Part shown: positions 14,371-64,000 of the stretch, in pieces
How positions within the stretch are numbered: position 1 is the stretch's first letter
Layout of the letters: every line of letters starts with the position of its first letter
Source: Geosiphon pyriformis
Lineage: Eukaryota > Glomeromycota > Glomeromycetes > Archaeosporales > Geosiphonaceae
Direction: 5' to 3'
Assembly: GCA_016748015.1 (NCBI GenBank)
Contig: JAAOMT010000263.1
Span: 176,302-240,301, forward strand
DNA length: 64,000 bases
Notes under the pieces: model-generated
Seen by the model: the letters and a program-made list of their open reading frames with translations, nothing else
Database searches by the model: none
What the model was told of the DNA's origin: nothing
Program-made: the position numbers and the translations under genes

Positions 14371-15817
14371 AATCAAGGTTTAAAATTTGCAGATAATTTT
14401 AAAGGAGAATTTTGGGAATTTGACACTTTCTTTGACCAGCTTTCAGATGAATTCAAGTGTCTTAAATGTGGCAACTTATATATTATTATAAATGGCTTCC
14501 TGATATGTTCATTTTGTGACACCGATAAAATTAATAATAATATATTTAAAGCCGGCTTGCCGAAATGTCCAGAATGTTATTGCATATTAAAAGATTCACT
14601 TTGGTGTAAAAATTGTGAATCATCACGATTTTTCAAGACTTGGGGAAGATGGATCTAATAGTTTTAATCAGTATATAGGATACACACAGCAAATTTCTGA
14701 AAGCTGCAGGGGATACCTGGGAAAGGTTTTTTTCGCCACGAAAACATATTTTTAGATAAGGTGGTGAGAGAAAGAGGATTTAGTGTTGTTAAAAAAGGTA
14801 TATGGAAGAGAGGAAAAATTTTATTTTAGAATAAGAAAAATTAAAATTATGACTGAAGTAGAGTTACGAAATTTGCTTTAAAACATCTTAAAAATAGCTA
14901 AAAGATGGAACATATCTATACAAATGAGGTATTTTCCTCTGAATGAACTTATCAAATTTTTATTATCCCGATTTCTTTTCTAACACCAAAAAACCGTATT
15001 TGTGTAGTTTATTGCGCATCTTAGAAGCGTCCCTTGTAGCTGTATCCTTGAATGTTATGGAATGACAAAAGACGTTGCAACCGATTAATTTATCATGGTT
15101 TTACCATTTGCAGAACACGGGAACCTCAGAGCTTTTCTAAAGATGAACGAGACCATTCTTACTTGGAGCATGTTTCTTCGTATTCTTCTTCAAATCGCTG
15201 GTGGCCTAAGGTTTAGACATGATTCAAATATGGTGCATGGGGACTTACATCCTTGTTTTGAAAACAAACCCTTTAAAAGTGGTTATTTCTGATCTTGGAC
15301 TCTGTCGTCTCGCTGATTACTCTTCACTTTTTGGCAAAATTTATGGTGTTCTTGAATATCTCGCACCCGAGATTTGCAGGGGGAATCCTCAAACTAAGTA
15401 CAGCGATACATATAGCTTTGCTATCATTTCCTGTGAAATTATTTCAGGAGAAAGAGCTTTGAATAATACGCATCCTATTTCACGTGCGAATTGACATAAT
15501 TGATGGAAAGCGCCCTATAATCAAAAAACATACACCTCAATGTATTGGGGAAATGATTGAAAAAAAATTGGCAATATGATCCGTATTCCCGTGATAGTTT
15601 GGAACAACTTCAACAAAGAGTTATTGCTGCTCGCGATAATTGTAACTTAAATCAAGGTATCCCTGAAAAAATACTTTATACCGAAAAGATACAAGATGCT
15701 ATCCGATATAGTACAAGATATAGAAGCCGGTTATTATGTTTAATATTAAAAGACTTGGGTCTAACACCTGTTTTAGAGTTGGATTTGGATTTGGATTTGG
15801 ATTTGGGGATTAATTAA
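14371..15817 (+). pseudogene. Zinc-ribbon/tyrosine-kinase-like protein, broken
   Basis: 14371-14660 encodes a cysteine-rich segment with CLKCG, CSFC, CPEC and CKNC pairs, the zinc-ribbon-like lead-in common before kinase domains in these fungi. After a frame change come YTQQISESCRGYL and a decayed N-lobe near 14755-14815 (GFSVVKKGIW, where a glycine loop GxGxFGxV is expected). The C-lobe is clearer: 15095-15290 has EHGNLRAFL, IAGGL and the catalytic loop HGDLH; 15270-15490 has SDLGLCR (DLG in place of DFG), YLAPEI and DTYSF; 15557-15817 has the C-terminal helices. In-frame stops and at least three frame changes separate these parts. The Ser/Thr-Tyr kinase function is inferred from family resemblance only. 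It lies directly after the Sel1 pseudogene on the same strand, so the two may be pieces of one ancestral gene. Confidence 0.8.
15781..15804 (+). repeat. (GGATTT)4 microsatellite
   Basis: Four perfect 6-base units near the 3' end of the kinase pseudogene, read there as alternating Leu-Asp. A slippage-prone coding microsatellite. Confidence 0.9.
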
Positions 15818-18814: not shown

Positions 18815-18990
18815 CATTTATTGACCATCGATTGTTATATATTTTGGTCACCATATTTTTAAAATTATTATTTACTTAATTATTGACCCTAATCATTAAT
18901 TTGGTTATTAAATTAATTATTGATTCAATCATTTTAAAAGATATATAAATGACCTCTTTAAAAGTGTAAAAAGTATTTAACAAACAAAGA
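18815..18990 (+). repeat. LTR-A fragment, copy 1
   Basis: A 5' part of the LTR-A family: a GGTCACCATATTTTTAAAA segment like the GCCACCCTATTTTTAAAA of the 55.7-kb copy, then five 12-bp units and a TATA-like box. The 3' half of the family sequence is not recognisable here. Confidence 0.6.
18876..18936 (+). promoter_or_regulatory. 12-bp tandem array (5 units) with TATA-like box, LTR-A copy 1
   Basis: Degenerate units of the form TTAATTATTGAC, with one extra C after the first. A TATAAA string follows at 18944-18949. Confidence 0.65.
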
Positions 18991-22551: not shown

Positions 22552-23803
22552 TCATTCCTCATGTGAGATATTTCGTTGTTCTATCAATCGTACTAGTCCA
22601 AACGCAGCTCCAGCAGCTAATATTCCAACCATCGCAGTTTGAAGTGCACCCATCAATGCTCTTCGTTTTGAAACAAAGTAAGACTTTGCGTAGCCGAACG
22701 CCGCCAGACAACAAACTGTAACAATAATACTCATCCATAATCCTGTTCCGGAATCGGAGACGAAAAAGTAAGGGAGTAATGGTATGAGCCCACCGATAAA
22801 ATATGACGTTCCTATTGTTATTGCACTTATCTTATGATATCAATTAGAATTAGAAAATTGATTAATTGAAGTATGGGATTTGATTAATCTCACGATTTGA
22901 TTTGATTTGATTTGATTTGATTTGATTTTATGATGATATAAACATTTACCCAAATTCTTCTAGGATCGGGTTTTTCCAAGTTTAATTCAAATTTCATCAT
23001 AAAATCAACAAACTTTTCCGGATTTGATACCATTTTATTAATCAGCGGCTGTAGGGTACATCTATCAATCCCATATGGTACGAGAATATCTGAAATCAAT
23101 CAATAACTTAGATATATGAAAACCTAAAAGAAAAATGTTAAGATGAATATTGAATAGCGTCTCCATTTACCAATCACTTCTTGAATTTCTTCGTCCAGAC
23201 ACTCTTCAACTTCTTTTTCCTCACGTTTCCTTTCACTGTCATAATGATCAGCCTCTGATTTTGCACCAAGATACCCACCAAGACCCATTGAAATTGCCCC
23301 TGATACTAACTCTGAAAACCATTTAAAAGGGTTAAAACTATTGAATTCCCAAAAAATTTTTCCCTAGTAATTCTCTCAAAATTCTCTCACTCAATCTTTT
23401 TGATAAAATCTGGTTTTATCTTGTTTACCTGCTAAACCAGCTGTGACAACCAGTGTTGGATCCCCAAAATTCGCAAGTCCTGCAGCTAAGGCGAATGGAA
23501 CCTAGATATCATCCACACATTGAAGAACAGTTCAAATTCATATTAAAAAACCCTCCCCCCCCCCCATATATAATTATCACTAGTAATTTTTTCAATTTCT
23601 TGTACTCAACACACCGTTAAACCATCACTTAATCCAATCACAATATCACGAACAACTTCAGGGGATTTAAAATGTTTTTCATGGTGTTTAATTGGTAATG
23701 CTGGATATACATAACTATATTCATCTTTTTCATTTGGTGTTGATTCTGGTCGACGATTCGGAGGAAAATATGCGGACTCTGGTCGAACATTTATTAGTGA
23801 CAT
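22552..23803 (-). CDS. CCC1: CCC1/VIT1-family vacuolar iron/manganese transporter, 5 exons
   Basis: Exons in order of transcription: 23803-23615, 23501-23429, 23311-23171, 23089-22950 and 22830-22552. All introns are GT..AG and the phases agree, giving 273 residues. The first membrane helix has the family signature GLSDGLTVPFAL (Asp60) spanning the exon 1/2 junction. It is followed by ELVSGAISMGLGGYLGAKSE, then an acidic cytosolic helix rich in Glu (residues about 108-135), which in this family is the metal-binding domain. The C-terminal half has GTSYFIGGLIPLLPYF and two further helices. Family members move Fe2+ or Mn2+ into the vacuole in exchange for protons and protect against metal excess. 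Whether iron or manganese is the main substrate cannot be read from sequence. The intron-4 acceptor was chosen because it restores the frame at ISAITIGTSYF. Confidence 0.92.
22894..22928. repeat. (GATTT)7 microsatellite in intron 4 of the CCC1-type gene
   Basis: Seven perfect 5-base units inside the 119-base intron; a likely length-polymorphic site with no visible effect on the coding frame. Confidence 0.95.
23551..23565. repeat. Poly-C tract in intron 1 of the CCC1-type gene
   Basis: CCCT followed by 11 C. Such a tract is striking in this AT-rich DNA and is prone to sequencing or replication slippage, so the true length may differ. Confidence 0.85.
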
Positions 23804-25650: not shown

Positions 25651-28329
25651 ATTAAATTGTTTAATATATTAAATTTTGATTAATTATTACCAGTTTTGAA
25701 AACAAAACAAGCTATATTCTTATACATATTTTTAAAAATTAAGCTAATTATATTAAAACTAAAACATTTTTCCTTTTTTGTTTTTTAGTAATATTGTTTT
25801 TAATAGTATTTAAAAAACTATAAAAAATTATCAAAAATTTTTAAGTTAAGTTTTTTAAAGTTATTAAAGCTGTTTTTGCTTGCTAATTAATTCTGATAAT
25901 AGAAAATAATATTGAAATTTTTTTTGTCAATTAAAAAAAAATATTTATTTTTAAGTTTAAAAAAACTTTTAATAAAACTGTTTTTATTGTTTTTTTTAAA
26001 CAAATTTTTATTTATTTATATATTTATTAATAATTGCAATTTAATTAATATTTATTACAATATAATTACTTAAAATAAACATGATTTATGCTTTTTTTAT
26101 ACATAACTAAACTGGTCAAGACAATACTAAAAATTTATATTATAAATAATATAAATATTATTATAAAACTTAAAAGATCAAAATTAACTAAAATATTATA
26201 ACTAAAGTCTAAATACATAAATATTAATATCTAAATTACAAAAAAACAAAACTTTTAACATTAAACAAAACCAATTTATTAACAATTAACAATTTATAAG
26301 TTTTATAAAATATTTTTAGTTTAATATTTAAAAGTTAAATATTCGATTTGTGATAAGTTGTTACTTTATTTGCAAATTAAATGATTTTTGTAACAGTTTT
26401 TAAATTATCAATAAACATATTAAAAGTCTCTAAAAACCAATTTTTTAAGACAAAATATTTTATAATAATTATATAAAACAGCTATTAGTTTTTATATTAT
26501 GTAACAATTAAATTATTAAAAAATTTATAATTAATTAATTAATTAAACTTTTTATTTTATTATAGTATTAATAATAATACTTTTTTTAGCAATAAAATAA
26601 AAATTATACAAAAAAATATAATCAGAATTTTTTAATATATAATTATATAAACAATAGTATTTAGATATAATAAATTATATAGCTTTTTTTAAAGTAATTA
26701 ATAATTTTTATATAAAACTTTTATAAAATAAAAATAAAGAACAGCAAAAACCAAATCAGTTAAATATATTTATTTAAATATTATATTATTATAATATATG
26801 CTAAATTAAAATCACAAACTAGAGATTTATTTATATATTTTTTAGTATATCTAAATTTTCAATTAATAAAACTAATAGAATTAAACAAACTTTTCATAAA
26901 ATAACAAGCATTTTTAAAAACAAATTAATTTTTGACAATTAAATACTAATTATAAATATTAAACTACTAAATATAATATAAATTTATAAAATATATTTGT
27001 ATAATTATTGTTAAAAATACTAACATAGTCATTAATTTTATTTAATAAATTAATAAATATTTATTTATAATAATATTATTAATATAATAAAACTTAATTT
27101 AATATTTATCTTAAAAAATTAGGATTAACAACAATATTAATTAAATCACATATTTTCAAAAAAATCTGATTATTTAAGATATTTAAAACTGTATTTTTTA
27201 TTAAGATACAGTCTAAAATTAAAATTATTATTTTTAATTCAGTTAATATTAATAAAAAAACTCATAAATATTCAAATTTATATTAATAAAAAAATAAAAA
27301 CATTAATAATATTATTATAAAATCTTAAACTTTTAATTAAACAAAAACTAGATTTTTAAGATTTAATTTCTTTAATAATAAAAGTTTTTCTAAGTAAAAC
27401 ACAATTTATAGCAGTTTAAAAACTGGTTAATAAAAACAATTTTAAATTTTTTTAAAATCTGATTATATTAAAGTAATTTAAATAACTCAATATATTTGAA
27501 ATTAAAATTTTATTTTTTAAATAAAAAATTTAAAGTAATTATTTGCCAAAAATAAATTATACTTTAAAAAAATACTAGTTATATTAATCAAAAAATTATT
27601 TTTAAGATTATAAACAATTTAACAAAAAACTATAACAGATACTATAATATTCAATTTATAATTTACAAATCTATTATTTTATAATTAAAAAGTTTTTTAA
27701 AAATAATAAATTTTTTTATTAGAATATTTTTTAAATAAATTGGCTTTAAATTTTAACTTACTTTTTATGATTAAATCTTATTTATATAAATATTTTTAAG
27801 CATAAAACTAAATTTGAATTTTAAATCTTAATAATTAGTTATAAAATTATTAAAACTAAATACAAAAACTGTTTATTTAAATTAGTTGTTTTTAAATTAT
27901 ACTCATAAAAACTTGATATTCAAATAAGCTTTTTTTAAAGTAAGTTTTAATATATTATTAGTTATTAAAAAAATCTTAGATATTTATATGTTTTTTTTTA
28001 GTAATAAAAATAGATATTTTATTAATGTTTAAGACAAATTTTTTCATTTAATAGTTATAGTTACTGTTTTTTATTATTTATTAAAATATTATTAATTTAA
28101 AAAATTATTAGCAATATTTAAAATATATTATAAAACAATTTGAAAATATTAATCTAAATTATATTATTAATAAAAAATTTTAATAACCAAAAAAAATTAG
28201 GCCAGTTTTAAATTTAAATTTTTTAGTTTTTATAATAAATTTCAAATTAACTCTATAATTACACAAATGCTTTTGTCTTTTAATTTTACATAAAAAAATC
28301 ATAAAAAATTCTTAAACAAAAAAAAAATT

Positions 28330-29090
28330 TTTTTAATTAAAATTATTATAAATTTTATACTTATTTAATAAATTAAAGTTTGTTATAACTTTATAATAAA
28401 AACTTTGTTTTAGTTTATTTGAATGATATAATTGTGTATTTAAAAATCTAGAATAAATATTTTAAATATTTGCAAAAGATTTTTAATTTTTTAAAAATTG
28501 TTGACCTAAAAATCAATTTAATTAAATCTTTTTTTGAACATTAATTTACTTAATTTTTTGGTTATTTTATTACAAAAAATAGAATCTTTTCTAATTTTGT
28601 TAAGATAAAAAAAGTCTAAAATCTTAAACAATTAATAAATATTTTTAAATTGTATTTTTTCTTTGGTTTGACCTTTTATTATAAAAAATTTGTCAAGTTT
28701 TTTTCCAAAATTACTTTTTTTTTAAATTAAGTATTTAAGAAAAATATCAATTACTATTAAAATATATATTAACAAAAAGTCTTTGAAACTTTAAAAAAAA
28801 ACTTACTATTAAATTTATTTTTAAATAATCTAATTTGAATTGATTTTTTATTTTTTATATTAATATATTTGGCTTTAAACTTAGTATTGTCTTCTTCCAA
28901 AAAAATAAAAATAACAAAAAATATATTATAATTTATATTAACAAAATATTTACTTTAACATAACAAAACTATTTAATTATTAAAAAAAATGTTTAATAGT
29001 AGTTTAAACTATTAATTATTAGAACAAATATTTTTTGATGTTAAATTTTTAGTAATAATAAATTATTAAATCTTGGTTTGGTTACACAAC
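28330..29090 (+). pseudogene. Gypsy reverse transcriptase and RNase H, decayed
   Basis: The RT active site reads FVLVYLNDIIVY at about 28404-28439 (YLND at 28416-28427), where Gypsy elements have YLDD; the first catalytic Asp is Asn. RT-thumb-like residues follow. At about 28850-28895 comes FIFYINIFGF, corresponding to the FxLxTDAS start of Gypsy RNase H, again with Asp changed to Asn. IFFDVKFLVITNY near 29026-29065 matches the later TDH-type RNase H motif, also with Asn. Several TAA and TGA codons interrupt the frame. Confidence 0.82.
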
Positions 29091-29559
29091 AAAAAAAACT
29101 AGAATATAAACAGTAATTTATTAAATACTTTAATTGAACAAATTGACTATAATATACAATACTGCAAAAAAGCTAATTATTAAAACGTTAACACTTTTTT
29201 TAAATGTATTACCAATTAATAATACAACTATTTAAACTAAATTTAACTAATTATTAGTACAACTGTTTTAATTAAACACAATAATAAACTTAAACAACTA
29301 CTCTGTACTAATAAAATTTTTGAATAAAAAATAATACCTATTAAATTATATTTAACAACAAAAAAATATTTGCAAAAACAATAAATTTTTATTTGATTTA
29401 TTAGAACCAATTATATAAAAGAGATCGAAAAAATTTTAACTATTTTTAAAAAATTATAAAATTTAAAAAAATAATAATTGTAATTTACAATATATATACT
29501 AATTTATTAACTAAATATTTTGACAAAACAAAAACAATTCAAAAAATTTTAATTTGCTA

Positions 29560-30235
29560 TTATTAGTCTATTTTAGAAAAAAAATTGTTAAATACATTAA
29601 AACTTGTAATATCTGCCAAAAAAAAAAAATCCAATAGAAAAAAAATATATATCTAATTTTTGTTAATTAATTATTTAACAGAATTAATATTAATTTTGTT
29701 AAACTTTTAATAATAACTCTTAATAACAATTAATATATTATAATACTTATTAACTATCTTATAAAATGAGTAAAACCAAAAACTATTTCTGATTAAACAG
29801 TAGTTTTTATTGCCAATTTTATTTATAAATATATTATATATTATTGTAGCTATTCTAAAATATTTGTATTCAATAAAAAAAACTTTATAGAAAATTAAAA
29901 ATACATTACAAACTTTTATATTTATATTATTCATAAATAAATAGTCTAATAAAATATTTTAATAAAATATTATGTAAAATCTTGGCCAAAACTAGTAAAA
30001 AAACAAACTTATAAAACAAAATACTGTCTTTAGCTTTGTTTATATATAAAACTGTAAATTATAACATAACAAATTATAAGTTTTTTTATCTATTCTATGA
30101 AAAAATAGCAATTCTACCAATAAAAACTAATATTAAAACAATATTTTTTGAAGAAACTATAATAAAAAAGTACAAAAATATTTTGCAAAAAAAACTTAAT
30201 ACAATTTTTAGCTTACTAATAGAGACATAAATAAT
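29560..30235 (+). pseudogene. Gypsy integrase, decayed
   Basis: The CxxC half of the HHCC zinc finger is at 29605-29616 (TCNICQKKK). The core shows INYLIK, a stop, then VKPKTISD, a stop and VVFIANFIYKYII at about 29740-29850, in the order expected of the Gypsy integrase core. The C-terminal end at about 30060-30125 has NYKFFYLFYEKIAILPI, equivalent to the Gypsy PFxLxYGxxxxLPI motif. Stops replace expected Trp and Gln codons, as C-to-T or G-to-A changes would produce. Confidence 0.85.
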
Positions 30236-31254
30236 TGTCTTTGAAAAGATAAAACAGTTCCAAAAAATACTTAAGAAAAAAAAACATACAAAATTTTTTT
30301 TTTAAGTATTAATAATTTAATTTTGAATATTGTTCAAATAAAAACAATATTTATAAAGATAAGTTTTCTAGTTAGTAAAAAGAACTTTTTATAATTAACA
30401 AAGTTTTGAATAATGGTTTTTATATTTTATAAAATCAATATAAAATAATCTTTAATAATTAATCTGTGCATAATAAATAATTTAAAAAATATTACAAACA
30501 ATTTAATTAGCTATTTGTTGTAATAATATCGACTTTAATAATTAACAAAAATTAGTTATAAATAAACGCATTATTTCTAAAACAGAAGTATTTTTGATAA
30601 TATAAACAATTATTTTCTGGATTAAAACATTCAAAATACTTTTTATATTCTTTATGAATATTAAACTAAAAATTATCCAAATAATATTTTAACTATTAAA
30701 AAACAAATCATTATAACTGATAATAATAAGACACATATTGTTATTAAGCCAAAAAAAACTATTATTAAAAAAGAAAAAATTAGTAATAAAATAGATAAAT
30801 ATATACTTAAATACATAATATTAGCTATATTATTATTTTTTAATATACTTAAAAAAATAATAAAAGAAATTTTGTTTATAAATAAAAACTTGTCATATAG
30901 AAGACAATTAAAACTCTATAATCGATTTAGTGAAATTATAGAAAACATAAAGCTTTTAAAGAAAACAATTTCAAAAATACAAATAAAAATTTTAGACATT
31001 ATATAGTTAGATATTTCAAGAGTTTTAATTATTGCCAAAAAAACCAAAAACTTTTATACAAAAATTTGGTTTTTTGAATGCAAAACTTATTTTATTTCAA
31101 ATTTATAAATATATTATCAATAAAAAACTTAATTAAACTAATTAGTTTTAAATTAGATAAAACTTTTTAATTAGAATATTTTATAAATAGTTTAATTTTG
31201 CCAAAGCTTAATTTTTTGGAAAAAATAATATTATAATTAAAAATTATAGTTTTT

Positions 31255-31790
31255 ATTAATTATTATATATATTAACTACTAATATTATATAATTAACCAC
31301 TCTATTTTTAAATAGTAATTAATAACCTAATTAATAATTTGGTTATTGACCTAATTATTAACTTAATTATTGATTTTATCACTAATTTAGTCATTAACTA
31401 TTTTCAATAGCTATATAAACAATAAGTTTTTTAATTATAAAAAGACATATTAGAAAATACAAAATATTAAAGTAATAAACTTTACTTTTAAATATTCAAT
31501 CTTTTTATATTATTTTTTGTTTAAAATATTTGAACATTTTTAAATAAAAAATTATTTGTTATAATATAGACTATTTTTCTATTTTTTAATTTTTTTATTA
31601 TCTTTTAGAAAGATTAATAACTAAGATATTTATAAAACTAATTTTATATATTAAATTTATATTAATTTAATTTGTTTTTTAAAGTTGAATTACCTTTTTA
31701 ATTATTTCTATTACTATACAATTCTATTTTTTCTTGTTATTTATTAGCTTATTACTTTAATTTGTAATATTATTAATATTCTTAAACTTA
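31255..31790 (+). repeat. LTR-A, copy 2 (probable 3' LTR of the Gypsy relic)
   Basis: Aligns along its length with the copies at 51.06-51.70 and 55.72-56.34 kb: a CTATTTTTAAA lead, the 12-bp array, the TATA-like box, then a shared GACTATTTTTCTATTTTT segment (here near 31568) and downstream AT-rich sequence. Its place after the integrase on the same strand fits a 3' LTR. Ends are approximate. Confidence 0.7.
31315..31398 (+). promoter_or_regulatory. 12-bp tandem array (7 units) with TATA-like box, LTR-A copy 2
   Basis: Seven uninterrupted 12-base units such as CTAATTATTAAC and TTAATTATTGAT. TATAAA follows at 31414-31419. Confidence 0.75.
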
Positions 31791-34409: not shown

Positions 34410-35054
34410 AACAGAAAATTTTACAGAACTAAAATCATTTGAAAGTCATGAGCTGCCACTAAAAGATTGGGCAACAAAATAAAAAAAAAGCTTAACCAAA
34501 TAATCACAGACCAACTTAAACCAAACAGAAACTGTATCTTTAGAATTAAGCTACTTCCAATAACAAAAACTCTTTCAATCAAAAATAGATCTTTTTTTAT
34601 TATACAATTGGTCAGCAAAAGCAATATCAAACTTCTTAAGTAACTTAAAAATATTATAGAATATTGAGTCTTCCAAACTTGAAGACATAGGAATGTCACT
34701 TGAAAATTAAAAGACAGAAAAAAAGTTATTGTTAAAAAACATATTACAGTTCAAAAAAATTTTAACCACACTAGCCAGAAAATTGTTGACTGGACTAACT
34801 TTCAGCCTAGTAGAAACTCATAAAAGATGTATAGAAAATCAACTTAAAACTTGCAGATTCAAGAACTTATGAGTGAACAGATGACCAAAGACCTCAATAG
34901 CATTAAAAAAACACAACATAAAAGCCATCTTATTCTCTTCTTGTACTTGTTTGAAAAACTTCAGACTATATAAAGACAGATAATAAAAAGTCTTATTGAA
35001 AAAATTTCTAAACAAACCAATCTTTATTTTTAAACTCTTTTTAATTATTGTATT

Positions 35055-36038
35055 TTATTTATTGTATATACTCTTAGAGATAAAACTAAACTGGATTCTG
35101 TATTCAATAATAAAATACAGCACTACTAAGACCAGATAAAGAAACTGTTTATTAGAAATAGTCTTTTTCAAAACAATATTAGCAAAGAACTTGACATCCA
35201 AATAAGCTTTAATTAAACTAGGCTTGGACAAACTCTTAGAAAACAAGAAGATACCAAGATATCTATAAAACTTTCTTTTTTGTACAATCAAAATTGGCCA
35301 ACCACTAATTAATAATAAGGTATCTTTGACTCTCTGATTAATGAGAATAACCACAGTTTTTTCATTGTTAATTGAAATATTATTAATACCAAAGAATTCA
35401 TTCATAATGTTTAATATATATTGAGTTGTAGTCTAACTATTTTTCACTCAAATTGTGTTATTAACAAATGTATCAGCAGCCAAAAATAAGGTCAACTTAT
35501 TCTGGGCCTTTATTCTGCCTGTTTTGGCAACAAACCTAATGTTGATACAATAACTACACAAATTTTCATGTTTTTTAACTTTACACAAAAGAGGATTATA
35601 AAAGATTCTTTAGAGCAAAAGGAAAAAAACTTCACCTTAATCTAAACTATTATGTACACAATACTTATTAGTAAACTCAAAGTTTGTTATAATTTAGTTT
35701 ATTCTATTATTGTAAATATTTCTAAAAAATTTAATAAAACATTTGCACATTTTAATTTAAACCAAACTGTTTTTTAAGTAGTACCTGTCTACAAAATCAT
35801 AAACTTTTCTCATATCTTGCAAAACCAACCAAAGTTTATGACTTTTCTTTAAAGCATCTTTAATCACCAAGTTCACTGCAAAAATAGAAGACTGAATGGT
35901 AATATCCTTCAACACAAAAAAATTGTCATTACATAAAATGTCAAATCTGCTATATGTCAATAAAATTCTATCAAAAAGTATCTTAGAAAAAATCTTCTGA
36001 GCAGTCTCAATTAAAGCAATTGGTCTTGTATTAGTCAA
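35055..36038 (-). pseudogene. LINE copy 1 reverse transcriptase
   Basis: The first frame (36038-35757) has TNTRPIALIETAQKI, the non-LTR RT start (RPIxLxxxxxK), and LVLQDMRKVYDFVD, the motif carrying the first catalytic Asp. The active site at 35457-35468 reads FVNN instead of FVDD. The next frame (35405-35055) has SINNEKT and YRYLGIFL, the RT palm-end and thumb motifs of LINEs. Both active-site Asp codons are Asn, so the enzyme is dead. Confidence 0.85.
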
Positions 36039-37375
36039 AACTCCTTTTCATTCATAAGGCTTAGAAATTATTAATATTCAAGCTTTTTTCCAAAAACAAG
36101 GTACTGATTTACACACCAACAAAAATTTAAAAGATCTGAGCATCATAAAAACAGAATATTACATCATTTCCATCGTTTATTGGCAATATTAAACAAGTCA
36201 GCAGCTTTTCTATTAGGCAATTACTTACAGCAATTCATCAAAAGTAACAACAATTATAATATTAGAGAAAGCAGCATCATTAATATAAGCCAACAGCAAA
36301 TATTAACTACTCTATCAATTAGAAATCTTATTTATTACCAGTTTTTTTTTCATCCAACTCTTTATTATTATATCAATCTTAATTTTAAATTCATTAGAAT
36401 CCAAAACTAGTTTATTATCTACCACCAAATAATTTAAGACCACTTTTTAAAAAGGGCATTTCAATACACTTCTGATTGTGTGGTCTTTATTGGTAGCAAA
36501 ATTTTCTATATGCTTGTTAATAGCCAACTTGATTTTTGATTCTTTAGCTCTCAAAAATTCAGCAAGCTTAAAAACTCAGTATAATTTTTTTACACCAGAA
36601 AAAACAGACTTAACACAATTAAAATCAATATTAAAGTCTAACAAAACCCCAACTTTAGAGGTTTTTCTATTATTCATAGATGTTCAACAGCACATTAAAA
36701 ACACAAATTATTATTGGGTCCCATACAAAAAAACTTGAGAATCTTAGAAATCAGAACTTTTAGTTTGTGATATTTCAATGATTTTTTAGTGAAAACATTA
36801 TCAAAGTTCTTGAACTATTTCTTTTTAAATACTCCATTAGCTAACAAACACACAATTTTATGAATACTATTTCACATAGCATCCAGATCTAAGAATCTCT
36901 TATGTGTAACAAATGTGTCTGAAACTATAGCTGTATTGGTTTTCATAGCTTTTTTAAATCTGGTCCATTTAACATTATCAACATTTTTAAAATCAAACTT
37001 TTAATGGTTCCTATTTGTTTGCTTATGAAGAAAATTCAAACATATATCCAAAAGTCTACTCAAACTTATTAACATAAACACAGCTTAATAATTGGTATTA
37101 AAATAGTTACCAATATTCAAAATATCATAACTTACTATAGTATTGATTAGATTAGAGATGAGCATATAATTAATTGTTTTCTTAACACCTCTTAAATTTT
37201 TTTAAGTTGGGTTGCTTACAACCAAATTTTTTGACAAAAAATTGACCAGCCCTAAATTAAGACACTTTTTAAAACTAGCATATCTACAAGAACCATTTTC
37301 ATTGAAATCACTATCCATAATTACAAAAAAAGATTTATTTACAATCTTTGCAATCATTGAATTTATCTTACCAAT

Positions 37376-40080: not shown

Positions 40081-40244
40081 ACTATTCAAAACATCTTAAT
40101 CATAATCAATATTTTTTTGGCCAAAAACATTAAATTAGAACAATAAATTAATATTATTAGTTAAATACATATGTAATTAATATTGTTAAAATTAAATATA
40201 ATACATAAACAAATAGCAAAGAAAAATAATATTGTATAAAAAAG

Positions 40245-40479
40245 TAATTAAACTTTAATAAACGAATTAAATTAGTAAAAATTCAATATACAATATTAAT
40301 TTCATAAATATTTTAATTATTATTTTTTTAAAAAATAATAAAAAAATCTGAAAATAGATAAATAGTTCATATTGTTGTTAATACATTAATATAATTTTAT
40401 ATTTTATATTAATGTTTTTAGAATTTAATATTAAGTATTAATTATACTTTTCAATAAATATTTATTCAATATACAAATC

Positions 40480-40512
<33 letters not shown>

Positions 40513-40750
40513 TATTATTATATTAATTTTAGTATAGATTTGAATATAAATAAATTTCTATAACTTTAAAAAATCTTGCTTATATACTCTTAAAAAAAAT
40601 TAATAATCAGAACAATAAATATATTAACAATTTGGTTAATAATTTAGTTAATAATTAAGTTAATTATCAAGTTAATAATTACATTAATAATTAATTTTAA
40701 AAATAAGAGAGCTAATTAATAATATTAGTAACTAATATACATGACTAATT
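40245..40750 (-). repeat. LTR-A, copy 3 (reverse orientation)
   Basis: Its reverse complement matches the 51-kb and 55.7-kb copies along its length, including the lead around 40690-40740, the array, the TATA-like box (near 40580) and the downstream ATTGAATAAATATTTATT segment. Confidence 0.7.
40599..40682 (-). promoter_or_regulatory. 12-bp tandem array (7 units) with TATA-like box, LTR-A copy 3
   Basis: Seven consecutive 12-base units on the minus strand, for example GTAATTATTAAC and TTAATTATTAAC. A TATATAAG string follows at about 40586-40579. Confidence 0.7.
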
Positions 40751-41244
40751 ATGAATAAGTAAATAAATAAAAAATATAAGTTTTAACTCTAACAATATAT
40801 CTTCTACTTAAAAAAAAACCAAAAAAAAATTTATTTATATTCTATTTAAATACAAAAATTATAATAAAAAATTTTATTTATGAATGTTTTTATATTTTTT
40901 AAAAAAAAATATAAAAATTATATTTGTTATTACTATAAAATTTATTATAAAAAATAATTTAGCCACTAAAATAAAGTGGAAAATAAAACAATAAACTATA
41001 TTTTACTTGTAAACAATTATAATACAATTAAATTAATATTTGTAATTGGGCTACATTTATTAAATGCTTTAATAATATTTTAATAGAAAAAAAGTTTGTA
41101 ACTAAACTAACCAATATGTTTTATTTATTTCAGAAAAAACAAAGAAAAAAAATTTTATTTACAATAGTTTATAATAATGCTTTAAAAAATTTTATTATTA
41201 TTTTTATAATGCTAAAATAATTTATAAATTAATAAAGTTTTTAT
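40751..41244. other. AT-rich spacer before LINE copy 2
   Basis: No feature recognised; poly-A and poly-T runs only. Confidence 0.5.
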
Positions 41245-42149
41245 TAATAAGAATGGTTCTCGTGTTGTGGCTGATAGTTTGCATACTGATGTTAATTGGG
41301 TTAAGTCTTCTATGGTATGGCCCACCGATTCTCACTTGGTCTCCAGTTTCCCCAGCATACGCACGGCAAGCTGTCACACTTACTTTATGAAGGCTCTCTA
41401 TCATCGGCTTTCTGTTGCTGTGCGCAAGTATTTATATGATAGGAGATACCCCAATGTGGTCTGTCTGTTCTGTGGTAATGTTGAGATCTCAGATCACATT
41501 TTTTCGTGTTCTCAAGATGCCATAGGCCATGTTCGTTTGTTGGACACTCATGCTTCAGCTTGGAAGGCTCTTTCTGGTCTATCTCGCTCTTTTTCATGTG
41601 TCTCACAGGTGTTGGCTTCTTGTATTTCTGAGGTTAAAATTGGTGTTGCTCTGTGTAAGGGCTTTGTTTTCAATGACTGGTTTCAGGAGTCTGTCTCAGT
41701 TTTTAAAGATTCTAAGGAAGATACTAAAAGGATAGTGGGCTTTGTGCATGAGTTTTGTCTTGCATTTCAGGATGACATCTGGTTGGTCTGTGCCAAACAC
41801 CGGGCATTTATAGAGAGGCATGGTTTGATCCCACATGATGGGTTTGTTCCCGTGTCAATTTCTGGTTTGCCTGTGGCATTTTCGGCTGATATGATTAGGC
41901 TGTTGAGTATTGCTGAAGCTTTTGGAGTTAGTTACGGGTTTCGCAAGCTTTGTTCGTTCTTTTCGGGTATTGAGGACACAATCTCTGTGCATATAGGTGT
42001 GTAGTGTTGTTCTGACTGGCCCGAATGGCTGGTCATGTGTAGAAAATGCATGATTCACACCTAGTTTAGATCATTTGTATAATGTATAGTGCTAGGTAGT
42101 ATTTGGACCTCATTCATAAAATAATAATAAAAAATAATAATAATAAGAA
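41245..42149 (+). mobile_element. LINE retrotransposon copy 2, 5'-truncated, young
   Basis: A sharp island of normal composition in AT-rich DNA: the C-terminal end of ORF2, a 3' UTR ending GTATTTGGACCTCATTCAT, and a tail of ATAA/TAA units. TAATAAGAA occurs at 41245-41253 and again at 42141-42149 after the tail, a plausible 9-bp target-site duplication, although the second overlaps TAA repeats. It retains about 17 CpG in 0.8 kb. 5' truncation is typical of LINE insertions. Confidence 0.88.
41267..42004 (+). CDS. LINE ORF2 C-terminal fragment with zinc finger, still open
   Basis: About 245 codons without a stop, ending at 42002-42004. The true 5' end is missing, and the first codon shown is GTG, so this is not expected to be an independent gene. 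CLFCGNVEISDHIFSC gives the Cx2C...HxxxxC zinc-binding pattern found after RNase H in many non-LTR ORF2 proteins. The segment before it (MKALYHRLSVAVRKYLYDRRYP) is the usual linker. The protein ends SVHIGV. It can serve as the undecayed reference for the other copies in this window. Confidence 0.8.
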   Translation: MADSLHTDVNWVKSSMVWPTDSHLVSSFPSIRTASCHTYFMKALYHRLSVAVRKYLYDRRYPNVVCLFCGNVEISDHIFSCSQDAIGHVRLLDTHASAWKALSGLSRSFSCVSQVLASCISEVKIGVALCKGFVFNDWFQESVSVFKDSKEDTKRIVGFVHEFCLAFQDDIWLVCAKHRAFIERHGLIPHDGFVPVSISGLPVAFSADMIRLLSIAEAFGVSYGFRKLCSFFSGIEDTISVHIGV

Positions 42150-48504: not shown

Positions 48505-50770
48505 TTAACAAGTAAGACCCAATTACTATCTAAAAATTAGAAACAAATTAAGAGTTTCAGGACTAAATATAGTTTACACACTTTTTACATATAATCAGCT
48601 ACTCAAGCCAGTTCAGGCTATACTATATTAATGTACTAGAAAAAAACTTACCCAAAGATAATATTTTTTGAATAACAAAAAACAAAATAATACTGCAAAG
48701 AACCAATTCAACCAGCTATTTAACTGTTTTTAAGGCATTAGCTTTAATATCAATAGATTCATGTTTCCAAAGTGACATTAAGTTGGAAAACACTTCATCA
48801 TTCAAACCAACAGAATGTTTTGAATTACTAGACATATTAATATTCTCTATATAATACTTTTTTTTTAAAAAAACTACTTCTCTTTCCAACTTACCAACAA
48901 CTTTATTAAAGAAACCCATATGTACTATAATCTCATTAACTTTAAGGCCAAGTTTACTGCTTGAGGCCAAATTCTTATTAATAAAATATTCAAACAATTT
49001 GACCAAAAAACCAACTGGTTTAACAATAGACTCAACCAAAGCAAAAAGCTTAACCAAATTAGACTCCAAAGAAGCCAACCAAGAGAGCACTAAGGGATCA
49101 TCAACAACCATAGAAGGAAAAATAGAAGCTGCCAAGAAGGGAAACTCAAAAAAATTCAGGAAGGCAGAAGCTTTTACATAAGAAACACCACTCACAAAAT
49201 ACAGTTTAAACATCTTGAGAGCCTTGGGAGAAGAAAGTGGAAAAACTTTGCAGTTTACAGCCAAATAGCCTACTTCTTAACACCTAAAACAGTGCTGACA
49301 ACCAGGAGTTTCTCACCAAATATGGCATTTTCTTAGGGTACTAGTCTTGATAACTGCAGAGTCCAAATCAATTTAGAAACCAAATATAATCAGAGCAAAT
49401 TGGAAATGACAACCAGAATCAGGTGAACAAGGAATAAAACAAGTCTGGTCACCAACTTGAGAGATCATATCACTGATTTCAAAGACAGTGCAGTTAGAAA
49501 AAAGGTTGACCAACTTGGCCTTAAATTGATTACAAGACAAAATTGTCTCATTTTGATTGATAAAGGAAAAAATCTGAATACTATCTTTGCCCACTAAAAC
49601 TGACTAGTGAGTAAAAGCAGATGCAGCAGCATTCAATTCTTTAAAATAAACCACCACGTATTGCCAAATACTAGTAGGCTTTAGCACAACATAAAAAACT
49701 TCACCAAAAACACCAAGAGCTGACTTAATATTAGCAGCTGACATACTCAAAGACATGTCATGTAGTACTATAGCAGCAGGAAAAGAACCAAATTCAGAAA
49801 TTACCAAAAACTTGGCAATTTTGAGAGTGGCTAAGTAAACAGAGCTCATAAGCTCAACTAGAAATACAGCATCCAAAGAACTTTGGGAAGCAAATTCCAC
49901 ATAAAAAAGCTTCACATTGTTCTTAAAACAGATTTTGCATCTAAAAAACCATGTATAGACTGAAAAACAGTCTTAACATGAGCCAATTTAATTTTAAAAG
50001 TAGCACCAAGCACCAGAGTAAAAGCCACTTATTTAGCAAATCTTTGATAACTAGTATTGTTTCTCAAGTACCACCATCAGCAGCATCAGAAACCAGAAGA
50101 GAAGATGATTCAGTTTCTATTTGGTCAGCCCAGTTTTCAAGAACAAATGACATTATAGAAAATAATTGTTTTGCTTTTAAAACTGGTGATAATCTGCCAA
50201 AAAACACCACATTAGACAATACAGCCAGTGGTTGATCTTGACTTATCTTGGATAATATGCTGGATAATACTATGGAGATCTCACTTAAGATCTTATTGAG
50301 AACCACAAAGGGATTTGGCATAACAATAGCAAAGACAAGTAACTGCCCCCACTTTTCTGAACTTTTGGTCTTTTTAACCATTTTTTTTGAGGAAGTAATA
50401 CTAGTAGCACTAAGTGTTGAAACAAGAAAGGGGAAAACCAGCTTGTTTACAAATTTATTATTAAAAACTTTTGGGTTTTTAGTTGAAATGAAGGCAACAC
50501 TAGGACTAATCCAAGTGTGTTTCTTTGAGGGAATTTTGACTGGTGAAAAACCAGCCAAAGATGAAAAAATTGCTTCAGTAGCTATCAAAAGCAGCTTTTT
50601 ATGATTATTAGGTAAAAAAAAGACTTTTAAAACGTTCTGCCTAGTTGTTTTTACAACAGAGAGAGCTTTTCTGATTGAAATTTTATTAGATATCTCAAGA
50701 AAAATATTAAGTACAGCTTTTTTATTTTTTGCTCTGGTCATGGTCATAAAATTAAGGAGACAAAGAGTTT
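48505..50770 (-). mobile_element. LINE copy 4, internally deleted (ORF1 joined to 3' UTR)
   Basis: On the minus strand an ORF1 relic (50747 to 48716) runs almost directly into sequence like the LINE 3' UTR: at about 48.55-48.62 kb the reverse complement has ACTGGCTTGAGTAGCTGATT and TTTTAGATAGTAATTGGGTC, comparable with ACTGGCCCGAATGGCTGGTC and CTAGGTAGTATTTGGACCTC of copy 2. The whole of ORF2, several kilobases in copy 1, is missing. It sits inside an LTR-B copy. The junction is approximate. Confidence 0.7.
48716..50747 (-). pseudogene. LINE ORF1 with RRM-like domain and CCHC knuckle, decayed
   Basis: Four frames in order: 50747-50064, 49915-49604, 49594-49373 and 49264-48716. The first is a long Ser/Lys/Leu-rich N-terminal region. 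The second (IVLHDMSLSMSAANIKSALG, then VVLKPTSIWQYVVVYF) has the beta-alpha-beta pattern of an RRM. At 49291-49250 the frame reads C-x2-CFRC, a stop, then EVGYLAVNC: a CCHC zinc knuckle in which the His is Tyr and a Gln is a stop, both possible by C-to-T. The last frame is a coiled-coil-like tail. ORF1 proteins of this type bind LINE RNA. Stops at each break make it a pseudogene. Confidence 0.78.
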
Positions 50771-51059: not shown

Positions 51060-51700
51060 CAAATATTATTATATATAGTTACTTATATATATTAATTAAT
51101 AATAATATTAATTAGTTATTTTATTTTTAAAATAGTTATTAATGTAATTATTAATTTGATTAATAACTTAATTATTAATTTAATTGTTAACTCAATTATT
51201 AATTTAATTATTAACTAAATTATTGACATAATTATTAATCTAATTATTAATTTTTTTTAAAAGTATATAAATAAATTTTCTTAAAATTATAAAAATGATT
51301 TATATACAGATTAAGTTTATTTAAAATAAAAATTAATACAATAATAACAACTTTTTTATTTTTTTTCACTATTTTTTTTCTTAATTTGTATAATTGTTAG
51401 TTTTTGTAAAATATATTAAATAAATATTTACTAAAAAATACAATTAATATTTAACATTAAATTTTAAGAACATCAATATAAAACATAAAATTATATTAAT
51501 ATATTATTTTTATTAACAGTACAGACTATTTTTCTATTTTTAAATTTTTTTGTTATTTTTTTAAAAAAATAATAACTTAAATATTTATAAAATTAATTTT
51601 ACATATTGAATTTTTATTAATTAAAGTTGAATTATTGTTTAATTATTTTATTATTATATAATACTGTTTTTTTTATTATATATAAATATGTTATATTTAA
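51060..51700 (+). repeat. LTR-A, copy 4
   Basis: A full-length match to the 55.7-kb copy, including the lead, the array, the TATA-like box, AAATATATTAAATAAATATT and the GACTATTTTTCTATTTTT segment near 51527. It lies between two LTR-B-related segments (50.83-51.04 and 51.70-51.88 kb) that resemble each other. Confidence 0.75.
51144..51251 (+). promoter_or_regulatory. 12-bp tandem array (9 units) with TATA-like box, LTR-A copy 4
   Basis: Nine uninterrupted 12-base units, the longest array in the window. TATAAA follows at 51266-51271. Confidence 0.8.
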
Positions 51701-51704
51701 TTAA

Positions 51705-52060
51705 TAATATAAAAAAAAACTTTTTTTTAAAAAAAATGTATTTTAATTTAAAATAATCAATTTAATTACAACAAAAAAAATTAAAGAAAAACTATTTTTG
51801 AAATTCAAATTTTTTTCAAAATTATTATTGTTTAAAATTTAGTATTTTGACTAATATTTTGAAATTACTAAATATTATTAAAAAGTTTACAGACAAAAAT
51901 TTCTGTAAAAAAATTAATTTTTCTACAAAATAATTATATAAAATAATTGATACAAAATTGGCTATTCTATTATAAATCCAATAACAAAAACAATTTAATA
52001 TATAGAAAAATACTTTGAAAATAAATTAACTTATTAAAAATTTATTAAATTTTATTAACA
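51705..52060 (+). repeat. LTR-B-related fragment with adjoining internal sequence
   Basis: 51.71-51.88 kb resembles 50.83-51.01 kb. 51.90-51.98 kb resembles the sequence after LTR-B at 59.36-59.47 kb: CTACAAAATAATTATAT against CTACAACATAACTACAT, and ATTGGCTATTCTATTATAA against the undecayed ATTGGCCATTCCACTTATAA. The differences are mainly C-to-T. Confidence 0.6.
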
Positions 52061-55000: not shown

Positions 55001-55720
55001 TACAAATAAAACAACTATTTTTTTATAATGTTTTAACAAATTATGGCCTAATTATTAATTATAATATAAAACTAAGATATTCTATAATAGTTATGAATCA
55101 TGTGTTTTCTATATATAATTAGCTATTAGAAACAACTATTATAAAAATCAGAAAAAAATATTAATTATAACAATACAATTAGTATTAAAATTATGATCAA
55201 TAACTTTTTAAAAAAAATAAAAAAATAAAAAATAAAAACAGCTCAACAACATTTTTTTAAAGTGTTTTTTTAATAATAAAAACCCAAAACAGTTTAACAG
55301 CTATTAAAGCAAATTTTTTTGCTTTAAATAAAGTTTTTCTTATTTAAAGTTTTTTTCAAATATTTAGTTAAATTTTAGCATAATTGTTATAATTATAAGA
55401 AGTTTTAATATTTTTAACAAAAAACTATCAGCAAAGCTATTTTTTATTGTTAAATCCTTTTTTTGCTTAAATAACTAAAAAAATAAAACAAAAAAATTAA
55501 TTTTTTCTATATTTAAAACAAACAGCCTTTTTAAAATACAAAAAAAAAATGTTTTTGATATTTTTATCAATCTTATAATAACTATATTAGTTATAATATA
55601 TAATTTTAATCAGATTATAAATAATAGTAATAGCAATAAATTTGTTAAAACTAAATTAATTAATATATAAATAAGTTGCTTAATATTATTATGATTAAAA
55701 CTTTTACTTTTTAGTTTTAT
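52061..55720. other. Extremely AT-rich stretch, unassigned
   Basis: No motif could be followed. A slightly less AT-rich patch near 54.88-54.95 kb has no recognised content. Confidence 0.45.
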
Positions 55721-55724
55721 TTAT

Positions 55725-56335
55725 TTATTTAGCCATAGTTAATCATTTATATTAGCCATTAATATTATTAATTAGCCACCCTATTTTTAAAAGTAGTTAT
55801 TAATATAATTATTGACTTAATTATTGACTTGATTATTAATTTAATTATTAACCAAATTATTAATATAATTACTAACTTAATTATTGATTTTTTTTTAAAA
55901 ACATATAAACAAAACTTTTTAAGACTATAAAAATTTATTTATACTTAAATTAAATTCATTCAAAGCAAAAATCAAAACAATAATATAATTTTTTCATTTT
56001 TTTTCAAATTTTTATTTCTTTTTTAATTTATATAATTATTAGTTATAAAATATATTAAATAAATATTTATTAAAAAATACAATTAATATTTAATATTGAA
56101 TTCTAAAAACACTAATAAAAAACATAAACTTATATTAATGTATTATTTTTTGTTAAAAATATAAATCATTTTTCTATTTACAGATTTTTTTGTTATTTTT
56201 TGAAAAAAATAATAATTAAGATATTTATAAATTAATTTTATTTGTTTATTAAAATTAAATTATTTTTTTATTATTTTTATTGTTATATAATATTGTTTTT
56301 TTGTGCTATTTATTAACTTGTTATATCTAATTATT
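55725..56335 (+). repeat. LTR-A, copy 5 (probable 5' LTR)
   Basis: Contains all family parts: GCCACCCTATTTTTAAAA, the array, the TATA-like box, then AAATATATTAAATAAATATT and a CATTTTTCTATTTACAGATT segment. It is followed by the segment that starts the Gypsy internal region at 25.66 kb, so it should be a 5' LTR. Confidence 0.75.
55805..55888 (+). promoter_or_regulatory. 12-bp tandem array (7 units) with TATA-like box, LTR-A copy 5
   Basis: Seven exact-length units, for example TTAATTATTGAC, TTGATTATTAAT and CAAATTATTAAT. TATAAA follows at 55904-55909, 16 bases after the array. Confidence 0.8.
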
Positions 56336-57855
56336 ACAATATATTAAATTTTATTTAATTATTACCAGTTTTAAAAACAAAACAAGTAATATTTTACATA
56401 TAATTTTATTTAATTAATTTATTAAGTTATTTAATTTTAAAAATTAGATTAATAAAATAAAAACTAAAGTGTTTTTAAAAAATACTAATTTTAATATTTA
56501 AATAATAATTACAAATTTCAAAAAATTTTTAAGTAATTTTTACTTTTGTGTTTAATAAAACTGCAAATATTAAATTAATTTCTATTAAAACTGTATTTTT
56601 AATTATTAATATAAAGTTTATTAGTTAATAACATGATAATATTTTTTATTTTAAGTTTTATATATTTTTTAATATTGTTTTAACATATTAATTAATTATA
56701 ATAAAAAAACAATATTAAAATTTCTTTTTTAAATAAAAAAAGTTATTATATTAAGAATTATATTCAAAATCAAATTAGTTAATTTTTTTGGCTAAATTAA
56801 ATTGGTTTCTCAAATAAATGGCTTTTAAATTTTGTTTAATAATTAAAATATATTATTATTATTATTATTATTATAATTAATACTTTAAAAAAAATTATAT
56901 TTAATAAAAAATTCTTAGTTTTTTGTGTTTTTTTAAGTATTAAGATTTAAATTATTTGGCTTTTAAGTATAATTTTATTTATAAAAACTTTTACTTAAGT
57001 TATAATTAATTTTTAAATTTTTTAAAATTAATTTATTAGTATAAAATTATATACAAAAACTGTTATTTTTTTTTGGTTTTTTGGCTTATTATTATTGATA
57101 AATTTATAATTAAATTAAAATTAATTTTTTTAAAATTTTAGTTAACAAGTTGTTTTTGTTAATTAGATTTATTATTAAGTTTATTAGCTTTTTAATTGAA
57201 TAATTATAATATTAATAAATATTTTATTTGTTAAAATTATTAAAGTAAAAAAAAAGTAATTAAAATAAAAAAATTTTTGTTAATAAAAAAATAGTTGCTA
57301 AAATAATAATTATATAAAAACTTTAAATTATTTAGTTTAATACAAATATAATAGTTAAATAAACAGAAAATTTAGTTTTAAATAATATTATTTGTGTTAA
57401 TATTATAATTAAAATATATAAGTTAAATAAGTTTATTTTATAATTTAATATAGTATAAATTTAACTAATTTAAATAACTAGTAAAATATAAAAATTACTA
57501 AATTGTATTTATATTAAAATATATATTTTGTTATATTATAATAAATAAATAAAAATAAAATAAAATTTAAATAAAAAAATTTTAAAAACTTTTAAAACTT
57601 AATAATTTAATATTATTTAAATAATTTAAAAAAATTTATTTATATAATTAATAAAAAACTTATAATTAAATTAATTAAATTATTAATATAATTTGATTAA
57701 TAATTAATCTAGAAAATAAATTAGTTAATTATATAATATTAATAATTAATACATAATCAAAACAATTAAATTAAATATTATAGATAAAAATAACATAATT
57801 TTAATTATAATTTTTTATTTTATTTTATTTAATAAGTACAGTTTAACTGTTACTT
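56336..57855 (+). mobile_element. Gypsy internal fragment after LTR-A copy 5
   Basis: Its first 70 bases match 25.66-25.73 kb (ATTACCAGTTTT, AAAACAAAACAAG), and weaker similarity continues. No protein is readable; by position it would be the leader and gag part. A TTA-type microsatellite lies at about 56850-56874. It stops where the 3' end of LINE copy 5 begins. Confidence 0.55.
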
Positions 57856-60894: not shown

Positions 60895-61660
60895 ACAACA
60901 TTCACTTTAATATTAGAAAAGTAAACTGTTGTCCTATTAGCCATCTTTGAAGTATTCAGATCTTTTAACGAACTATTAATATAAATATTAATTGTTTTAG
61001 ACAACAATTTATACAAATATTCATGAATATCTAAGAACTTATTTAAGCAAAAAAAATTTGAACAAACCAAATTAGCAACAATCTTATTAAATTCAACAAA
61101 AAGATTGTTCATATATACTGATGTTTTTTTAAATTATAAAAGTATTAAATATTTTGGGCTTAGCTTTTTTTAATATCAAAAAGTTTTCTAATCTATAACC
61201 AAACCATGCTTGTTTAATAAATAATCTCTAAAAACAATACCAAAATATTTTAAAGAATATACTATATCAAAATAATAAACATTTTTCAATATTTGAATAT
61301 TAAAAAACAGCTGGGTTTACAAAATGCATTAAACAAATTATTAGTCAAAAAAACTTAAGTGTTCAAAAAAATCTTAATAATTCTCATTAAAAAATTGTAT
61401 ATAGAATTAATTTTCAATTTGACTAAGTACTACAAAGAATTTAAAAGCACCAAAACTTGCAAATCCAAAGTATAGTGTTTGAACAATTGGCCAAGAATTC
61501 CAGCAAAATTAAAGAATCCAACTACCAAAACTATCTTAACTTTAGCTTACACTTGCTTAAAAAACTTCAAACTATATAGAGATAAGTGATATAAAGTCTT
61601 ATTAAAAAAATCATTTGGCAAATTGGCTTTAGATCTGAATCTCTTTTTTATTATAATATT

Positions 61661-62075
61661 TTATTTGTAATATATATTTTTAGATACAAAGCTGAATTGT
61701 ATTTGATAGCTAATTATAAGTTGCAAAACTGTTGAAACTAAATAAGCAAACTGTTTTTTTAACAATATCTTTTTAAAAATCATATTTGAAAAAAATCTAA
61801 TATCTGAGTATGCTTTAGCAAGACTTGGCTTAAATAAGCTTTCTGATGATAAAATTTTTTTTAGATATTTATAAGATTTACCAAACTTGGCCATAAAAAT
61901 TGGTTGGCTATTAATATGTAAAGAAGCTTTTATTATCTTCTGGTTAATAAAAATAGCTACTATCTTGTTATTATTAATAAAAATATTATTGATCCAAAAA
62001 AATTCACTTGTAATGTTCAAAATATACTGTGTTAATATTTAACTATTTCTTACTTATATTGTATTATTAACAAAA
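61661..62075 (-). pseudogene. LINE copy 5 reverse transcriptase part
   Basis: The active site at 62063-62074 reads FVNN (FVDD expected). The frame 62020-61661 follows with INNNKIVAI and YKYLKKIL, where YLGI is expected, and QFAYLVSTVLQLIISYQIQF, matching the end of the RT thumb region in copy 1. Confidence 0.78.
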
Positions 62076-64000
62076 ACACCAACTATAAAAAATAAAAAAA
62101 TACCTTTATTAATCTCTATTCTGCTTGATTTTGCTACAAAATTAGAGTTAATTCTATATTTACATAAATGTTTATGTTTTTTAATTTTACACAACAAAGA
62201 ATCATAAAAAATTTTCCAAAAAAGTGGTAAGAAAACTTCACACTAATCTAGTTTATCATAAACCACATAGTCATTTAAAAAACCAAAATTAGTTATCACT
62301 CTGTTAATTTTGTTTTCATAAATATTTCCAAAAAACTTGATAAACCTGTCATATATTTTGATATATTTCAAACTAGATCTTAAATAATACTATTCAACTG
62401 AATCATAAGCTTTACACATATCTTGCAAAGCCAACCAAATTTTTTGGCTCTTTTTCAGAGTGTTTTCTACTATTAAACTAATAACAAATATGAGAAACTA
62501 AGTTAAAATATTTTTCAAAACTGAAAAATTATTATCATAAAGAATGTTAAATTTGTTATAAATAGATAAGCTCTGATTTGACAGAACTTTAAACAAAATT
62601 TTTTTTGTAGTCTTAATTAGTACAATAAGTCATGTGTTAATCAAAATGTCATTCTATTTATAAAACTTAAAAATTATCAAAACTCATGTCTTCTTCCAAG
62701 AATTTAGAATATCACTAAGTTTAAGACAAAAATTCAGTAGATTCAAAAAACATTCTATTATTTTATTATGATAATATTTTTACAGCTTATTTGATATGTT
62801 AAAAAGATTAATGACTTTTTTATTAAATAATTTATTGATTATCAAGACCAATTTTCCTAAGCTAATGTTGTTTATTATGCCAGAAAAAGTATTATCCTTT
62901 ATATGCTCTAAAGAAGCATATTGACAAGTCCAAAAATCAAACAGAACCAAAGAAATTTTCTGCTTTTTTGTCTAATCTATTATAATATTGTCTATTTTAG
63001 ATTTTATTTTATCTGGTTCTAAAATCAATTTTTTCTCAATTACCAAATAATCTAAAACAACTTTGTGAAAAAGTTATTTCAAAACATTTCTTATCATGCT
63101 TTTTTTATCCAAACTAAAACTTTCTATTTGCTTCTTAATTGTATTTCTAATAGATGTATTTTTGGTCATTTTTAATTCATAGTATTTTGATTTTTAATAT
63201 CTTTTTTTAATCTTTGACAAATGTTTAATAATTTTTGTTAGTCTTACATTATTACAAAATATGATAACAATTTTGAAAGTCTTAGTATTATTAATAGTTA
63301 ACCAAACTCTAACAAGCTGTTTGAAATTAAACATCTTATCTGAACTCAAACTCTTTATTATCTTAGCAACCAAAAACTCTAACTTAAAAAATCTCAAAAA
63401 TTGTTTGTTTTTTAAATAGTCAAAATTACAGAACCAATATTTAGAAAACACTTTATTAGCCAAACCAGTTATAACACTTTTCAAAATTTTTCATATCTTA
63501 TATAAATTTTTTTTATCTCTTGTATTCACAAAACTACTTATTATAGCCAACAATTTAGCAAAAAAACAATTTTTAAAATGCATTAATTTGGTCTTATTTG
63601 CATTTTTAATTCAAAACTTTTACTGATTTTTATTAGTCTACTTGTAAATATTGTTTAAATAAAAATTTAATAGGCCTTCTAATTCAATTAAGACAATAAT
63701 TACTTTATGATTAGTATCAAAAAACTTAGATACAGATTCAATTTTATGCTCAGTAATTGCCAAAAACAAATTTTTACTTATAAAAATATAGTTAATAACT
63801 TTTTCTATCCCTCTGAAATTGCTTTAAGTAGTCAACTTAACTGAAAAATATTTATTTAATAAGTTAATTAAACCCATATCCGAATATTTTTTAAAACTTA
63901 TATATTTTTTAAAATTATTTTATTAAAGTTACCACTCAGAATTACAAAAGAGCTAGAACTTATTGTATTAGAAATAACTAAATTAACATTAAAAGTTTGA

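Follow-up and report, generated by a model that had tools for sequence, protein, structure and literature searches.

Phased 12-bp tandem arrays upstream of TATATAA in the long terminal repeats of decayed Ty3/gypsy elements

The 64-kb window, the whole stretch of DNA analysed here, contains on its plus strand a tandem array of ten 12-bp units near TTAATTATTRAY (51132..51251), a spacer of 12 bp after the last unit (51252..51263) and TATATAA (51264..51270), a core-promoter-like box. Similar arrays lie elsewhere in the window, and the locus raises the question of what kind of sequence carries them and why the number of units varies while the distance to the box is kept. The arrays are not expected by chance: the motif of two units matches the window 25 times against 0.10 expected from dinucleotide shuffles, none of 100 shuffles reached 25, and the 12-bp arrays of the window are also listed by Tandem Repeats Finder. 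In the assembly containing the window (124.7 Mb), three perfect units in a row gave 465 matches against 49 for the reversed pattern; these matches overlap inside arrays, so that 465 is a count of places and not of arrays.

The 51-kb array lies in the U3 of a long terminal repeat (LTR) copy (51064..51709, plus strand), which ends in ATTAATAATA and of which the left ~50 bp are lost or diverged. A complete solo LTR on the plus strand at 55 kb (55687..56338) is flanked by ATAT on both sides (55683-55686 and 56339-56342) and contains eight units (55793-55888) with CATATAA at 55902-55908 after a gap of 13. Another complete solo LTR, on the minus strand at 40 kb (40184..40794), also has ATAT on both flanks, eight units including one degenerate unit (40694-40599) and TATATAA at 40586-40580 after a gap of 12. 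The LTR at 31 kb (31229..31769, plus strand) is the 3' LTR of an element of a sister subfamily, with seven units (31315-31398), a spacer of 13 and TATATAA at 31412-31418. The internal part of its element (28404..31228, plus strand; left border placed from similarity to other copies) holds a decayed RNase H remnant (1.3e-4), a weak integrase-zinc-finger remnant and, immediately before the LTR, the polypurine-tract-like (PPT-like) run TTTTTTGGAAAAAATAATA. The array at 18 kb (18876..18948, plus strand; about 4-5 units, TATATAA at 18942) has looser spacing; it aligned with the LTR profile over the array only and its flanks are without full-length relatives, so this copy is not confirmed as the LTR in question. 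The initial annotation had taken five dispersed arrays for copies of one LTR, which holds for all except the one at 18 kb. Its count of seven units at 31 kb is correct and its count of five at 18 kb compares with our 4-5, while the recount gave ten and not nine units at 51 kb and eight and not seven at 55 kb and 40 kb, mostly by one edge unit that had been overlooked. Another partial LTR copy on the minus strand (7036-7548) starts near the TATA region and is without an array.

The repeat carrying the 51-kb array is a dispersed unit of ~700 bp with at least 40 copies of about 73-86% identity, and its boundaries are sharp over 36 left and 35 right borders. The termini are T[GA]TTATRRTTA...TAAYYATAA[CT]A, that is, of the TGTTAT..ATAACA type, beginning and ending with TG...CA or, often in these copies, TA...TA. 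They fit the published LTR end motif TGTTRNR...YNYAACA (PMC3601003). Over 11-15 bp the two ends are also imperfect inverted repeats of each other, and most copies are solitary; on these features a MITE-like DNA transposon bounded by terminal inverted repeats was favoured at first. The insertion sites point the other way. A 4-bp target duplication with an NTAN preference is exact in 7 of 27 flanks (3.2 expected, P 0.011), and a solo LTR with only two units (locus L029, 1010-1660) splits a gypsy reverse-transcriptase gene with GTAT on both sides, the related locus L105 being the matching unsplit (empty) site; this is one filled/empty site.

The arrangement of the copies relative to one another is also that of LTRs. 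Two elements of the sister subfamily (C279 and C175) have LTRs in the same orientation about 6.3 kb apart, and the main family provides a probable LTR pair 5.15 kb apart (C359). The sequence TAAAA[GA]T[AG]GTGCTYYC follows the right end of some copies, and a purine-rich run precedes the left end of others, which is the pattern expected of 5' and 3' LTRs, respectively. The G/A-rich run at the left edge of 3' LTRs, such as GGAAAAAATAATA, is a putative polypurine tract, judged by its position and composition only. The sequence conserved after the 5' LTR contains no TGG; no clear primer-binding site beginning with TGG was found, and a search with the initiator-tRNA pattern gave no match. A search for 5' LTRs 1.4-2.4 kb and 4.7-6.4 kb upstream returned mostly internal sequence, the window had no match in Rfam, and a plasmid collection gave none either. 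A MITE-like transposon does not account for same-orientation copies at both ends of gypsy elements, for the shared internal start that follows some copies, for the PPT-like runs that precede others, or for the duplication, the filled/empty site and the termini of LTR type; it was dropped on the internal start, the PPT-like runs and the gypsy domains described below, and we consider it highly improbable. The 700-bp repeat is an LTR, as the initial annotation had proposed. An array outside the LTR, the case which that annotation had set against its own reading, was not what was found: the array belongs to the LTR.

The element type was identified from internal stretches translated piecewise on the LTR strand, each stop being written as X. 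L105 contains RVT_1 (1.9e-18) and RNase H (2.3e-24), and L029 contains RNase H (2.5e-21) followed by Integrase_H2C2 (4.4e-7) in one frame, all on the LTR plus strand; these two loci bear out the order reverse transcriptase, RNase H, integrase on the LTR strand. RNase H was also found in L025 (2.8e-12). In L050, of the main family, the matches were weaker and lay in different frames (Integrase_H2C2, 2.6e-4; RNase H, 0.16). The element is a decayed Ty3/gypsy element with a main family and a sister subfamily. Every copy seen is decayed, and present activity is therefore doubtful. The internal parts of L050 have 10-14% G+C and no long frame, against a G+C content near 22% and retained domains in L029, which belongs to the sister subfamily; decay toward A+T seems to have gone further in the main family. 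Open reading frames near the LTR copies (41267-42004, plus strand, and 48716-50747, minus strand), which we take to resemble parts of LINE-type elements, gave no significant Pfam match. The idea that the array repeat is part of these LINE-like frames was rejected, their orientation to the repeat being inconsistent.

Within the LTRs, the number of units is variable and the distance from the array to TATATAA is retained, in both the main family and the sister subfamily. In the main family, the distances from a conserved TATTTTTA block to TATATAA form clusters near 100, 111, 123, 135 and 148 bases. Among the regions of 100-150 bases, 24 of 28 have lengths in three adjacent residue classes modulo 12 (P about 3e-10); with all 41 regions taken unselected, including those in which the TATTTTTA block or the TATA anchor was placed elsewhere, 26 do so (P about 3e-6). 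The ladder is cleaner in the sister subfamily, where 21 of 23 regions fit a length of exactly 13 + 12n bases with n = 2-13 (P about 6e-20), or 21 of 25 when two mis-anchored or truncated regions are included (P about 2e-18). Between the last unit and TATATAA lie 11-13 bases in 36 of the 41 LTRs of a set drawn almost entirely from the main family; in the sister subfamily, 22 of 23 LTRs have a gap of 13 bases. The initial annotation had recognised that this gap is nearly constant and had given it too wide a range (8-16 bases). Unit number ranges from 2 to 13 across the LTRs, and none of those with both anchors properly placed has zero units. A count of 14 in four main-family copies includes unit-like matches upstream of the array; for this family, a maximum of 11 is better supported.

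At the time of insertion an element has two identical LTRs, a consequence of the mechanism by which LTR elements are reverse-transcribed. In C279, the 5' LTR now has nine units and the 3' LTR six, and the two are 79.9% identical to each other versus 69-72% to other LTRs. Since such paired LTRs now differ, units have been gained or lost after insertion in whole 12-bp steps. This change in unit number rests mainly on the C279 pair. The C175 pair has ten and nine units, with 80.0% identity versus up to 79.6% to other LTRs, which makes the proof of pairing weaker, and the C359 pair, with five and eleven units, 73% identity and the flanks ATAA and GTAA, is uncertain as a pair.

Such changes in dead copies would also be produced by a neutral minisatellite lying by chance in U3, with slippage alone setting the number of units and the fixed distance to TATATAA reflecting few indels in a short spacer. 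In agreement with this, the similarity between units hardly depends on their rank in the array (0.76 for different ranks versus 0.74-0.85 for equal ranks), and indels are rare elsewhere in the elements, most full-span matches to a 1267-bp internal query staying within about 15 bases of that length. On the other hand, both subfamilies retain the array and its register though their spacer and downstream sequences have diverged, and LTRs without any unit are missing where both anchors are properly placed. A purely neutral array is the main alternative, and we regard it as somewhat unlikely.

The degree to which the parts have diverged was compared between the subfamilies. Identity is 0.67 for the last unit (0.49 shuffled), 0.59 for the spacer (0.50 shuffled) and 0.64 for the left part of U3, which is above the shuffled level; the stretches after TATATAA (0.58 and 0.56) are near the shuffled level. 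The value for TATATAA itself is 0.98, which is biased, since the region had been positioned by means of the box; ranking of heptamers in alignments for which the TATA box did not serve as a guide is fairer. By this measure, TATATAA is the best-kept of 567 heptamer windows in the sister subfamily, a rank somewhat biased by the exclusion of a few LTRs without a recognisable array or box, and ranks 8 of 687 in the main family. In the main family, AATAAA is most frequent 130-160 bases past TATATAA, as expected for the order U3-R-U5, and in the sister subfamily its positions are scattered. The conservation of the array could be explained by plain common descent, and the length of the spacer may have been kept only through the rarity of indels there.

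We consider it fairly probable that the arrays are promoter-proximal repeats of U3, in which the register to the TATA box is held, the number of units is free and the units raise transcription. In this scheme, the tandem units directly upstream of TATATAA would be the promoter-proximal part of U3. The RNA of the element would begin about 25-40 bases past TATATAA and have its 3' end near an AATAAA that lies about 130-160 bases past the same box. Slippage or unequal exchange would add or remove whole units, both between insertions and after insertion, and the unit register, the spacer about one unit long (11-13 bp) and the TATA box would be retained during drift. The units would bind a host activator, or keep the DNA nucleosome-free, and in this way raise transcription. 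Activation, the start site and a bound factor, suggested by the initial annotation to be homeodomain-like or bZIP-like, are what we infer from the nucleotide sequence. A stricter version, a length-tunable promoter in which unit number sets the strength of the LTR, selection keeps the spacing and a graded series exists genome-wide, appears doubtful.

The array may alternatively act as an AT-rich stretch that is nucleosome-free or easily melted and not as a set of factor sites. The units are mostly A and T and their number is loose, as such a stretch would allow, while the units retain a definite sequence and phase. Since the LTR is very rich in A+T over its whole length, an A+T stretch needs no 12-bp order. 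We consider this explanation unlikely.

The promoter-proximal arrays can be compared with known systems. The elements share with Ty3/gypsy elements (Metaviridae) the LTR end type, TATA and AATAAA, the 4-bp duplication, and reverse transcriptase, RNase H and integrase on the LTR strand. They differ in being very A+T-rich and decayed, in having no recognised TGG primer-binding site, and in a U3 with a long phased 12-bp array. Direct repeats are also found in the U3 of retroviruses such as murine leukaemia virus, where they are enhancers and their units are longer than the 12-bp units here; any enhancer activity of the present arrays is a prediction. The U3 of the tobacco copia element Tnt1 contains fewer repeats than the present arrays. 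Its BII boxes bind defence-induced factors (PMC3316501), and tandem repeats in it have been noted (PMC3601003). In both Tnt1 and the present LTRs a short motif is repeated in U3, here upstream of TATA; Tnt1 belongs to another superfamily and host, and a factor binding the 2-13 phased units here is likewise predicted. By analogy with Tnt1 and retroviruses, tandem arrays in U3 are an already known kind, of which the present case is unusually regular.

The host is probably a fungus, and the very low G+C outside genes, the Sel1-like repeated coding units and the long BTB-like proteins described below suggest an arbuscular mycorrhizal one. According to passages of two reports on Rhizophagus irregularis, Gypsy families are abundant there and are active both in spores and in colonised roots, where they are expressed (PMC8647823, PMC11075540); they resemble the present elements in superfamily and in probable host type, and those passages give no LTR promoter anatomy for them. 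The passages also describe high-copy kinase, BTB/POZ, Sel1-like and Kelch-like genes in R. irregularis (PMC8647823) and about two thirds of the repeats as unclassified in a mycorrhizal fungus (PMC11075540). If the host here is a mycorrhizal fungus, the array would provide a sharp mark for decayed gypsy LTRs. The natural series of 2-13 units before one TATA box would allow the relation of site number to output to be read from existing RNA data, and even a neutral array would be a clear example of a minisatellite staying in phase with a core promoter.

Outside its genes, the window has very low G+C. The repeated coding units in its tandem-repeat table are presumably Sel1-like, and its long proteins are taken to be BTB-like. 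Two related BTB-like genes lie in an inverted duplicate of about 1.5 kb with 79% identity (7690-9180 and 12423-10949). Further dispersed repeats, of about 66% identity, are present at 34719-36096 and 61331-62702, and at 27703-28391, 34980-35695 and 61620-62300. Perfect short tandem runs are formed by GATTT (seven copies, 22894-22928) and TTGGAT (4.7 copies, 15779-15806).
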